From Propionibacteriaceae bacterium (lineage in GTDB: Bacteria; Actinomycetota; Actinomycetes; Propionibacteriales; Propionibacteriaceae): DNA of 35,444 nt. This document shows positions 1-3,478 of the stretch, one piece after another (position 1 is the stretch's first letter; each line of letters begins with the position of its first letter). The stretch spans positions 1 to 35,444 of the forward strand of contig JAUNUF010000018.1 of the NCBI GenBank assembly GCA_030538315.1, in the 5' to 3' direction. A program made the position numbers and the translations under genes. Under the pieces are notes generated by a model that worked only from the letters and a program-made list of their open reading frames with translations, was not told the DNA's origin and did no database searches.

Positions 1-2501
1 CGGCGGAGCTCGACTTCGACTCCGTGCAGCGCAGCAACCCAGACATGGAGCGCCGCGTCCAGATGGTGATCGACGCCTGCACCGCGCTGGGCGAGGCCAA
101 CCCCATCCTGGCCATCCACGACATCGGCGCCGGCGGCCTCTCCAACGCCTTCCCAGAACTGGTGCACGACGCCGGCATGGGCGCCCGCTTCGACCTCGAC
201 GCCGTGCCCTTGGCAGATCCCGGCTTGGCCCCAAAGGAGATCTGGTCCAACGAGAGCCAGGAGCGCTACGTGCTGGCCATCGCACCGGAATCGCTCGAGC
301 AGTTCACCGCGATCTGCGCCCGCGAGCGCGCGCTCTTCCACGTGCTGGGCGTCGCCGTCGACGACGGGCAGCTGGTGGTGGCTGACGGCGCGGTGGAGAA
401 CGGGCCGGGCGAGGACCCCGCCGTCGACATGCCGCTGGAGGTGCTGCTGGGCAAGGCGCCCAAGATGACCCGCGACGTCACCCGCATCGAGCGCACCACC
501 GAGGAACTCGACACGGCCCGCTTCGACGATGCCTCCGCCCTCCGCGACGCTGCCTACGCGGTGCTGAGGCACCCGAGTGTCGCCTCCAAGCGCTTCTTCG
601 CCACCGGCGCGGACCGCACCGCCGGCGGCCTCACGCACCGAGACCAGATGGTTGGGCCCTGGCAGGTACCCGTGGCAGACGTGGCCGTGACGCTGACTGA
701 TCATCTGGGCCTCGCCGGCCAGGCGATGAGCTCCGGCGAGCGCACGCCGCTCGCGTCGGTGGACGCCCCGGCCTCGGGCCGCATGGCTGTGGCCGAAGCC
801 ATCACCAACCTGCTGGCCGCCCCCATCACGCTCAACCGCGTGAAGCTGTCCTGCAACTGGATGGCCGCTTGCGGCGAGCCAGGCGAGGACGCGGCCCTGT
901 ACGACACCGTGCACGCCGTCGCCATGGAGCTCTGCCCGGCACTGGGCGTGAGCGTGCCCGTCGGCAAGGACTCCCTGTCCATGCGCACCAAGTGGAGCGA
1001 CGAGAACGGCGAGTCTCGCCAGGTCACCTCCCCGGTCTCCCTGGTGGTCTCCGCCTTCGCCTCGCTCGAGGACGTCACCGGCACCCTGACCCCGCAGGCT
1101 GGCGCAAACCAGACGCTGCTGTTGGTGGATCTCGGGGCCGGCGCCAACCGCTTGGGCGGCTCGATGCTGGCGCAGGTCACCGGCGAGTTCGGCGGCCGCG
1201 TGCCGGATCTGGATGACCCGTCACGGTTGGTGGCCCTGGTCGACGGCGTCAACGCACTGCGCGACGCCGGCCTTCTTGCCGCCTACCACGACCGTTCCGA
1301 CGGCGGGCTCTGGGCCGCCGCCGTGGAGATGGGCCTGGCAGGCGCGGTGGGCCTCGACCTCGACTCGCCCTCCGTGGCCGCACTGTTCACGGAGGAGCTG
1401 GGCGCAGTACTGGCCGTCGACACCGCAGATGTGGAGCGCGCCGAAGCACTGCTCGCCGAGCACGGCCTGAATGGGCTGGTCAGCAGGGTGGGCGCCACCC
1501 GCGCGGATCGCCGCGTGGTGGTCCAGGTGGCCAGCAACGAGGTGCTCAACGAGAGCCTGCGCAGCCTCGGCCAGGCCTGGGACGACCTCTCATGGCGCCT
1601 GGCCGCCCTGAGCGCCAACCCCGCAACGGCCGATGAGGAGCATGCAGGATTCGCCGCCGACGACGACCCGGGCCTACACACCCACCTCACCTTCGACGCG
1701 TCCGAGGACGTGGCTGCCCCGTTCATTAACCGGGGTGCGCGCCCAAAGGTTGCGATGGTGCGCGAACAGGGCGTGACCAGCCAGGCCGAGACGGCCTTCG
1801 CGCTGGACCGGGCGGGCTTCGACGTCTATGACGTGCACATGACCGACCTGCAGAACGGACGCTTCGACCTGACGGACGTGGTGGGCCTCGTGGCCTCCGG
1901 CGCTGCCTCCTTCGGCGACGTGCTGGGCGCCGGCGTGGGCTGGACCCAATCAATCCTGCGCACCCCCGCCCTCAAGGAGGCGCTGGGTGAGTTCTTCCAG
2001 CGCGGCGACACCTTTGGCTTGGGCCTCAACAACGGCGCCCACCTGTTCACGGCCTTGGCCGAACTGATCCCGGGTGCCGACGCGTGGCCGCGCTTCACCC
2101 ACAACGTCTCAGGGCAGTTCGAGGGCCGCCTCTCGATGGTGGAGGTGGCGGATTCGCCGTCGCTGTTCCTGGCCGGCATGGCTGGCTCCCGCCTGCCCGT
2201 CGTCGTCTCGACAGCGGAGGGCTGGGCGGATTTCGCCACCCAGGGCGACGCGGCATCGGTCAACGCTGCGCTGCGCTTCGTCGGCAACGACGGCGCGGTC
2301 ACCGAGGCGTACCCGGCCAACCCCACTGGGTCGGCCGAGGGCCTGGCTGGCGTGACCACCACGGACGGCCGCTTCACCGCGCTGATCCCCAACCCGGATC
2401 GCGTGATCCGCGGGGCCCAACTGAGCTGGCCGGGCGGCCCGCTCGACGCCCCCACCGGCTGGCTGCGGCTCTTCCGCAACGCCCGCGTGCACGTAGGGTG
2501 A
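1..2501 (+). CDS. purL: Phosphoribosylformylglycinamidine synthase, large single-chain type (3' part); glutaminase domain catalytically degenerate
   Basis: The reading frame is open from base 3 and continues leftward out of the window, so only the C-terminal ~830 residues are present. FGAM synthase converts FGAR to FGAM with ATP and ammonia in purine synthesis. The visible part follows the E. coli-type fused PurL closely: NPILAIHDIGAGGLSNA, the segment ending PKMTRDV, DQMVGPWQVPVA, LCPALGV and VPVGKDSLSMRT of the synthase halves, then DPGL and RPKVAMVREQG opening the C-terminal class-I glutaminase domain. In that domain the nucleophile motif GVCNGCQ is GLNNGAH (Cys to Asn at 2028-2030), the HPE motif is NPD (His to Asn at 2391-2393, Glu to Asp at 2397-2399) and SHGEG is STAEG. 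The fold-defining surroundings (WPRF, AYPANPTGS, LFRNAR) are kept. I infer that the protein makes FGAM but cannot hydrolyse glutamine by itself. Confidence 0.95.
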   Translation, partial: AELDFDSVQRSNPDMERRVQMVIDACTALGEANPILAIHDIGAGGLSNAFPELVHDAGMGARFDLDAVPLADPGLAPKEIWSNESQERYVLAIAPESLEQFTAICARERALFHVLGVAVDDGQLVVADGAVENGPGEDPAVDMPLEVLLGKAPKMTRDVTRIERTTEELDTARFDDASALRDAAYAVLRHPSVASKRFFATGADRTAGGLTHRDQMVGPWQVPVADVAVTLTDHLGLAGQAMSSGERTPLASVDAPASGRMAVAEAITNLLAAPITLNRVKLSCNWMAACGEPGEDAALYDTVHAVAMELCPALGVSVPVGKDSLSMRTKWSDENGESRQVTSPVSLVVSAFASLEDVTGTLTPQAGANQTLLLVDLGAGANRLGGSMLAQVTGEFGGRVPDLDDPSRLVALVDGVNALRDAGLLAAYHDRSDGGLWAAAVEMGLAGAVGLDLDSPSVAALFTEELGAVLAVDTADVERAEALLAEHGLNGLVSRVGATRADRRVVVQVASNEVLNESLRSLGQAWDDLSWRLAALSANPATADEEHAGFAADDDPGLHTHLTFDASEDVAAPFINRGARPKVAMVREQGVTSQAETAFALDRAGFDVYDVHMTDLQNGRFDLTDVVGLVASGAASFGDVLGAGVGWTQSILRTPALKEALGEFFQRGDTFGLGLNNGAHLFTALAELIPGADAWPRFTHNVSGQFEGRLSMVEVADSPSLFLAGMAGSRLPVVVSTAEGWADFATQGDAASVNAALRFVGNDGAVTEAYPANPTGSAEGLAGVTTTDGRFTALIPNPDRVIRGAQLSWPGGPLDAPTGWLRLFRNARVHVG

Positions 2502-2506
2502 TCACC

Positions 2507-3478
2507 ATGGTGCGCGCAATCGTGGTTCGTGAGTCCGGCTCAGCAGTCGAGGAGGTGGGCGAGGAGTTCCTCGACGGCGACGGCGGGCTCGTCGTCGATG
2601 TGAGGTTCTCGGATCTCAACTACAAGGACGCCATGGCGCTCACCGGGCGGCCGGGCGTGGTGCGCAAGCACCCGCTGGTCGCGGGCATCGACTTGGTGGG
2701 CACCATCGCCGAGTCGGACAGCCCGCGCTTCGCGCCCGGTGACTGGGTGATGCTCAACGGCGCAGGCCTCTCCGAGACGGAGCACGGCGGGTACGCCACC
2801 CGCGCCCGCATCAGCAGCGAGTACGCCGTGACCCTCCCCGAGGGCCTCTCCCCCGAGCAGGCCGCCGCGCTCGGCACCGCCGGCTATACGGCGGCTCTAG
2901 CCGTGCTGCGGATCCTGAGCGAGAACATCATGCCCGAGGACGGCCCCGTGCTGGTCACGGGCGCCACCGGCGGCGTGGGCTCCACCGCAGTGCAGCTGCT
3001 GTCCAACGCCGGCTACGTCGTCTACGCCACGACGGGCCGCGTGGACGAGCTCGGCGAGTTCCTGCGTGGCCTCGGCGCGGACGAGATCATCGACCGCAGC
3101 ACCCTCGAGGAAGCTGGCCGCCCCCTGCAGAAGGCCATCTACTCGGCAGTGGTGGATTCCGTCGGCGGCGTGACGCTCGCCAACGCGATCGCCCAGACGA
3201 AGAAGGACGGCGTGGTGGCCGCCTGCGGCCTGGCCGGCTCGCACGAGCTGCCGTCGACCGTCATGCCCTTCATCCTGCGCGGGGTGACGCTGGCGGGGAT
3301 CGACTCGGTGTGGGCCTCGCTGGACGACAGAGCAGATGCCTGGCGGATTCTCGCCCGCGGCCTCGACCTCGGGAAGCTCGACGAGATGACCCAGCGCGTG
3401 ACCCTCGACGAGCTGCACGGCGCAGCCGAGGAAATGATGGCTGGCAAGCGCCACGGTCGCACCCTGGTCACCATCTGA
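2507..3478 (+). CDS. acuI: YhdH/AcuI-type MDR oxidoreductase (probable NADPH-dependent acrylyl-CoA reductase)
   Basis: A 323-residue medium-chain dehydrogenase/reductase without zinc-binding cysteines. The N-terminal signature SDLNYKDAMALTGRPGVV and HPLVAGIDLVGT is that of the YhdH/YhfP family, whose characterised members reduce acryloyl-CoA to propionyl-CoA with NADPH. The nucleotide-binding motif VLVTGATGGVGSTAVQLL lies near residues 148-165, and the C-terminus HGRTLVTI is also typical. The ATG at 2507 follows the purL stop by 5 bases, so the gene is probably co-transcribed with purL; no strong Shine-Dalgarno is seen. The link to purine synthesis is positional only. Family membership is clear; the exact substrate (acryloyl-CoA versus another enone) is inferred. 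Confidence 0.85.
   Translation: MVRAIVVRESGSAVEEVGEEFLDGDGGLVVDVRFSDLNYKDAMALTGRPGVVRKHPLVAGIDLVGTIAESDSPRFAPGDWVMLNGAGLSETEHGGYATRARISSEYAVTLPEGLSPEQAAALGTAGYTAALAVLRILSENIMPEDGPVLVTGATGGVGSTAVQLLSNAGYVVYATTGRVDELGEFLRGLGADEIIDRSTLEEAGRPLQKAIYSAVVDSVGGVTLANAIAQTKKDGVVAACGLAGSHELPSTVMPFILRGVTLAGIDSVWASLDDRADAWRILARGLDLGKLDEMTQRVTLDELHGAAEEMMAGKRHGRTLVTI

Follow-up and report, generated by a model that had tools for sequence, protein, structure and literature searches.

A long-form PurL with a dead glutaminase domain and a conserved synthase half in a Propionibacteriaceae genome that also encodes PurSQL

RESULTS

Gene content and domain structure

The stretch of DNA analyzed here (the window) comprises 35,444 nucleotides of contig JAUNUF010000018.1 from a Propionibacteriaceae bacterium (assembly GCA_030538315.1, genome G000). 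It opens inside the gene for a long-form PurL, i.e. an FGAM synthase, the features of which are listed in Table 1. The front of the gene was found as 474 open codons at the end of contig C193 of the same genome. The N-terminal part encoded there is homologous to that of the long PurL of G001, one of two further carriers described below, and C193 and the window contig are unjoined. On the 3' side of purL lie yhdH, a gene for a Fur/PerR-like regulator (scoring below the model cut-offs) and a catalase gene. On its 5' side, both on C193 and on contig C335 of G191, the second further carrier, glnA and an MmpL-type gene were recognized by eye.

A Pfam search with the 832 residues of the window protein returned the AIRS_C/FGAR-AT synthase parts followed by GATase_5 (PF13507, 244 bits, residues 580-829). 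A previous sequence-only reading of this DNA had described the glutaminase domain as full length, and this proved correct; the domain start that it gave, position 1735, is one base off the reading frame (Table 1). The window protein scored 1104.6 bits against NF003672, exceeding the cut-off of 783, and 1031.6 against TIGR01735, which is below the cut-off of 1123.05, the contig end truncating the protein. Homology was found over the synthase and the glutaminase domains, identifying the protein as a long-form PurL by descent. With the long-form PurL/FGAR-AT of Salmonella (PDB 1T3T) it is homologous over the 832 residues (phmmer, 830 bits) and shares the domain order and the synthase motifs. The window copy differs from Salmonella PurL in having lost the triad, the oxyanion loop and the SHGEG motif, and in coexisting with PurSQL.

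A structure model of the window protein was built with 26 sequences (mean pLDDT 76.2, pTM 0.73). Its best structural match was Salmonella PurL (TM 0.79 by query, rmsd 7.4-8.1 Å over the whole chain), and pLDDT fell below 50 in the former oxyanion loop, residues 636-642. The predicted structure supports the fold but not the domain placement, and an ammonia tunnel would be beyond its precision.

Table 1. Features of the long-form purL and its right flank in the window (positions of the window; residue numbers of Salmonella PurL unless marked as window residues)
Feature	Position	Strand	Basis or remark
C-terminal 832 codons and stop of long-form purL	3..2501	+	ORF without internal stop
Gly for Ile655, beside Asp657	606..608	+	common to the three dead copies; Ile in 46/46 intact proteins with a letter there
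Ala for Val660	621..623	+	common to the three dead copies; Val in 46/46 intact proteins
Glutaminase (GATase_5) domain, full length, catalytic residues lost	1734..2498	+	Pfam and Salmonella PurL alignment
Thr for Asn1051	1776..1778	+	alignment; common to the three dead copies; Asn in 50/50 intact proteins
Oxyanion loop GAASFGD replacing GGFSYGD	1899..1919	+	alignment; absent from the sequence-only reading
Asn for nucleophile Cys1135 (window residue 676)	2028..2030	+	Salmonella PurL alignment
STAEG replacing SHGEG/AHGEG	2208..2222	+	alignment
Asn for His1260 (window residue 797)	2391..2393	+	Salmonella PurL alignment; G000 only
Asp for Glu1262 (window residue 799)	2397..2399	+	Salmonella PurL alignment; all three dead copies
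yhdH (acrylyl-CoA reductase family), right flank of the insertion	2507..3478	+	start 5 bases past the purL end

Loss of the glutaminase active site in three carriers

Residues were numbered according to an alignment with Salmonella PurL (phmmer). This alignment confirmed the Asn, Asn, Asp and STAEG replacements that had been claimed before, at the positions in Table 1. The Cys-His-Glu triad of a glutamine-dependent FGAM synthase (EC 6.3.5.3) is thus absent from the window protein, which has Asn-Asn-Asp instead, and Arg1263 is retained. The glutaminase departed from invariant columns at 19 of 103 positions in the window protein and at 15 of 103 in that of G001.

Of 197 family genomes searched with the domain, 34 were counted as having a long PurL, and 30 loci were read; the long PurL fragments of G090, G085, G030 and G078 are excluded from this survey. 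Cys, His and Glu were all present in 27 of the 30 loci, the exceptions being the window, G191 and G001. A wider scan, with one genome per species for 84,980 species, yielded 60 loci, 59 of them readable (L095 had no ORF above the threshold). The Cys was present in 57 of these 59, and the exceptions were again G191 and G001. As the Cys is kept in nearly all surveyed loci, its loss in the window is not due to chance. G191 belongs to the same genus as the window and G001 to another; they are metagenome-assembled genomes recorded as Propionibacterium sp. isolates AS08sgBPME_70 and AS06rmzACSIP_15, respectively, presumably from anaerobic digesters.

The nucleophile position is occupied by Asn in G000, Gly in G191 and Asn in G001. 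In the glutaminase, all three have Glu1262Asp and Asn1051Thr, an oxyanion loop with Ala-Ala plus Phe, and an HGEG motif changed to contain Ala; in the synthase, they share Ile655Gly and Val660Ala (the state in G191 being read from its contig C335). His1260 is lost in G000 only, so that the claimed loss of all three catalytic residues holds for G000 and does not extend to G191 and G001, which keep the His. The shared changes date the onset of the loss to a common ancestor. The glutaminase was lost before the split of the three known carriers, with the loss furthest advanced in the window. Independent losses were considered and are unlikely given the shared changes and the synthase tree described below, which includes the window and G001, without G191.

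Further carriers were sought with a DNA pattern for the loop GAASFGDVLG, a search that misses carriers with a different loop. Hits came from 3 of the 198 family genomes and 3 of the 391 order genomes (overlapping sets), always the same three. Among plasmid records, cross-matches at 60-80% were seen, and one more at 90-95% lies outside the five matches listed.

The long-purL pieces of G191 (end of L137 on C335; L035, 4470-5465, on C274) overlap by 22 residues, 17 of which are identical. The G191 assembly therefore seems to mix strains or species, and it possibly contains two carriers. In G001, a single contig holds the whole long purL.

Conservation of the synthase half and selection

A list of 11 synthase motifs, whose functional roles we presume, was compiled for the present analysis. 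All 11 are present in each of the three dead copies. The synthase part departed from invariant columns at 13 of 187 positions in the window protein and at 9 of 187 in that of G001; the corresponding values for 46 intact proteins were 0.8% on average and 4.7% at most. The synthase is therefore not entirely normal, and Ile655Gly and Val660Ala, adjacent to Asp657, are among these departures.

dN/dS was determined by the NG86 method. For the pair G000-G001 it amounted to 0.18 (0.171/0.953) in the synthase part and to 0.36 (0.26/0.719) in the dead domain. Comparisons with G191, for which the pieces were kept apart, gave 0.33 twice for the dead domain and 0.20 and 0.16 for 521 codons of the synthase; 76 linker codons of the synthase part on C274 of G191 gave 0.19 and 0.46, the latter for G001-G191. 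Ten intact pairs ranged from 0.09 to 0.27 in the synthase and from 0.08 to 0.32 (mean 0.18) in the glutaminase. For the dN/dS values of 0.18 and 0.36, the divergence in the synthase part was 22%. The ratio of glutaminase to synthase distance was 1.67 for G000-G001, whereas 463 intact pairs (465 minus 2 near-identical ones) averaged 0.86 and did not exceed 1.32. The synthase of the dead copies is under purifying selection. The dead domain is relaxed but not neutral, and it lies only slightly above the freest intact pair (0.36 versus 0.32). Selective retention of the dead domain, which the sequence-only reading had suggested, gained support from the absence of stops in the three assemblies and from dN/dS values of 0.33-0.36, compared with 0.16-0.20 for the synthase.

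The resident PurSQL enzyme

PurSQL, composed of small PurL, PurQ and PurS, catalyzes the same reaction as long PurL and differs from the window copy in being divided among three proteins and in having a live glutaminase. The search for stand-alone purQ and purS that had been proposed gave a positive result: PurSQL is intact in G000, with a small PurL of 751 codons on contig C79 and PurS together with an intact PurQ (GICNGF, MPHPEH) on contig C22. In G191, C109 carries the genes for PurS and an intact PurQ, and pieces of the small PurL lie on two contigs. The small PurL of G001 is intact. PurS and PurQ were not found in the G001 assembly, which is 90% complete, and purS-purQ may have been moved or lost in this genome. 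The contig ends of G000 suggest the gene order purS-purQ-aminopeptidase-purL; on contig C451 of G001 (L169, 2620-7400), the gene upstream of the aminopeptidase gene and small purL is not purQ-purS.

The window protein does not belong to the PurQ-fed small PurL type, as it has a full-length glutaminase domain and as the PurQ of its genome has a small PurL. Docking of PurQ on the long PurL, which had been proposed as a role for the dead domain, has become less likely because PurQ has its own partner and because its counterpart is the very domain retained in long PurL; section 3 of PMC3815217 describes PurQ as homologous to the glutaminase domain of long PurL.

Origin and insertion site

A tree of 32 synthase parts grouped the window with G001 in a clade (100/99) within the long PurLs of Propioniciclava and its kin, adjoining the long PurLs of G117 and G138 (99/86). 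The window long PurL therefore derives from a long PurL of the Propioniciclava type. It is encoded by a single gene between the MmpL-type transporter gene and yhdH. In the genus mates G119, G176 and G170, these neighbors are spaced by 17, 24 and 41 bases, respectively, with no gene between them. Gain of one gene by horizontal transfer is the simplest reading of the site; as an alternative, an older gain may have been followed by losses. At the same site, G084 has a gene on the opposite strand that was recognized by eye as encoding a MATE-type transporter (L138, 13604-15007).

The GlmM encoded on the window contig shares 94, 93 and 89% identity with that of G191, G119 and G084, respectively, and the contig therefore belongs to its own genus. 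Contamination was rejected on the basis of these identities together with synteny with the genus mates on both sides of purL.

Dead PurQ and remnant small PurL in relatives

The mirror image of the window case was found in relatives in which the long PurL is intact and the stand-alone PurQ lacks the Cys. These are G048 and G064 (GIGNGF), G071 (GIGDGF), G117 (GIGPGF), G082 (GIGRGF) and G093 (GVGEGF). In all eight genomes of the family with both glutaminases readable, exactly one keeps the triad Cys (PurQ in two, long PurL in six). This count spans few independent events, has no probability attached to it and leaves out second GATase_5 matches of G123, G024, G030 and G197. As a control, 43 genomes were read from a pool of about 148 that had a GATase_5 match and in which no long PurL was found (182 less 34). 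PurQ was intact in 40 of 40 in one batch and also in G119 and G084; the exception was G100 (genus g7, assembly 69% complete), with a Cys-less PurQ and no long PurL found.

Two directions are evident among the dead PurQ proteins. Those of G071, G082, G093 and G117 drift, with omega at 0.50-0.68 in five pairs and the oxyanion loop partly deleted. Those of G048, G064 and G100 are 91-93% identical, with omega at 0.12 and 0.07 in two pairs; for living PurQ, four pairs gave 0.09-0.18. The window case is intermediate between the two, its synthase being constrained and its glutaminase relaxed in part.

The conserved Cys-less PurQ loci (L163, 107-2211, in G048; L164, 95-2211, in G064; L222 in G100) have GIGNGF and the loop GGASYSD. 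Beside the dead PurQ, PurS is joined to the PurC end in G048 (by Pfam) and G064 (by eye), and this PurC-PurS fusion carries a His/Asp-rich tail. Remnant small PurL ORFs of 513-523 amino acids without SHNHPS and SESQERM occur in G071, G082, G093 and G123 (loci L219, L220, L221 and L217, respectively), and the small PurL of G117 (L218), with 730 amino acids, is broken at these two motifs. Most other genomes with an intact long PurL gave no second small-PurL match beyond the cross-match to long PurL.

DISCUSSION

Retained glutaminase-like domains without activity have precedents. In CPS1, Cys is replaced by Ser, the inactive domain persists and ammonia is supplied from outside (passages of PMC4655335). 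The window PurL resembles CPS1 in retaining such a domain; it differs in having an unrelated synthase and in that its activity is predicted, whereas that of CPS1 is known. Passages of PMC3261824 report an archaeal PurF' without Cys that was proposed to use ammonia, a PurQ of Thaumarchaeota with Asn for His, and, in Methanoculleus marisnigri, a triad-less second PurQ beside a full purQ, ascribed to duplication or transfer and subsequent decay. Like the window PurL, these are purine amidotransferases minus triad residues, but the passages describe them without a long PurL that combines a dead domain with a kept synthase. The remnant PurQ beside a full purQ shows that loss after redundancy is known in kind. 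The vGATs of gammaherpesviruses are PurL-derived and lack catalytic residues (passages of PMC10820379), and their NCBIfam model matches the window protein below its cut-off; vGATs are viral proteins acting on host immunity, a role of which the window PurL bears no sign. Judged by title and start of abstract, none of the matches listed from the open-access literature reports a dead glutaminase in a bacterial long PurL, and its combination with a kept synthase is apparently undescribed in the literature searched. A search of the same literature for the Salmonella coupling residues gave no match.

As our best explanation, which we hold to be about evenly poised between right and wrong, the long PurL is a horizontally gained second FGAM synthase that has lost the use of glutamine and is predicted to run on ammonia. 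The resident glutamine-using PurSQL would have left the glutaminase of the newcomer free to die at no cost. The synthase would have stayed useful as an ammonia-dependent FGAM synthase, and the dead domain would have been retained as a structural part of a single chain built round it. Because the synthase is kept, continued formation of FGAM would be the best explanation, and without a glutaminase the ammonia for it would have to come from solution; we infer direct use of ammonia, one of the options raised in the sequence-only reading, as the best account of the function of the long PurL. Since G001 yielded neither PurS nor PurQ, the notion of a newcomer spared by a resident enzyme is borne out in two of the three carriers. 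The explanation is built on these three carriers only, one of which (G191) is a mixed assembly.

The main rival, which we consider unlikely but still to be reckoned with, holds that the long PurL forms FGAM at no useful rate and is kept for binding, e.g. as a sensor or scaffold on purine enzymes. In keeping with such a pseudoenzyme or regulatory subunit, none of the 46 intact proteins deviates as strongly from the invariant columns as this synthase does, PurL-derived pseudoenzymes exist in gammaherpesviruses (passages of PMC10820379), and the dead PurQ of genus g7 is under selection strong enough (omega 0.07-0.12, two pairs) to make non-catalytic roles plausible in the family. All 11 synthase motifs are nevertheless in place, dN/dS of the synthase is like that of working enzymes, and the remnant small PurLs of relatives have lost motifs, unlike the dead long PurLs. 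It is less probable still, and doubtful on the whole, that a redundant gained gene without present function is slowly heading for loss, the glutaminase going first. Redundancy with PurSQL, the same site being empty in G119, G176 and G170, loss of the His in the window only, which would make the decay ongoing, and the drift of dead PurQ (omega 0.50-0.68, five pairs) and small PurL remnants in relatives would all fit. Such decay is difficult to reconcile with three assemblies free of stops and with dN/dS values of 0.18 and 0.36, far from 1 at 22% divergence of the synthase.

Only a slight chance is given to the long PurL being fed by the PurQ of the cell, docked or nearby. PurQ and PurS are intact in G000 and G191, but the place of PurQ is occupied by the dead domain (section 3 of PMC3815217), PurQ has a small PurL of its own, and G001, in which PurQ and PurS were not found, has the same dead long PurL. 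An artefact, i.e. a sequencing error or a foreign contig, is very unlikely for the window contig and hardly to be credited: these are draft assemblies, and the G191 pieces agree at 17 of 22 overlap residues, but the same changes recur in three assemblies, and GlmM (94, 93 and 89% to genus mates) and synteny on both sides place the contig in its genus.

The redundancy with reciprocal loss is a more interesting fact than the dead domain itself. With rather less confidence than we place in ammonia use by the long PurL, we propose that only one glutaminase survives where long PurL and PurSQL share a cell. Either the long PurL would turn into an FGAM synthase dependent on ammonia, the equivalent of CPS1 in purine synthesis, or a dead PurQ (in one genus, beside the PurC-PurS fusion) would persist under strong selection as a non-catalytic subunit. 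If true, an FGAM synthase gave up glutamine, and relatives resolved the same redundancy in the opposite way, a natural test of two interchangeable enzymes sharing one cell. This raises the questions of whether ammonia alone suffices for PurL to serve a cell and of what retains a dead glutaminase in a multidomain amidotransferase.

As a warning for annotation, the PurQ of G048 exceeds the cut-offs of two NCBIfam PurQ models despite lacking the Cys, and the conserved non-catalytic PurQ merits separate study. Among the intact long PurLs, GICNGAQ stands for GICNGCQ in L048, L051, L010, L017, L044, L045, L055, L061 and L071, a group that includes G117 and G138, the nearest relatives of the dead clade; PHAER for PHPER also occurs in L010/L051 and L055.
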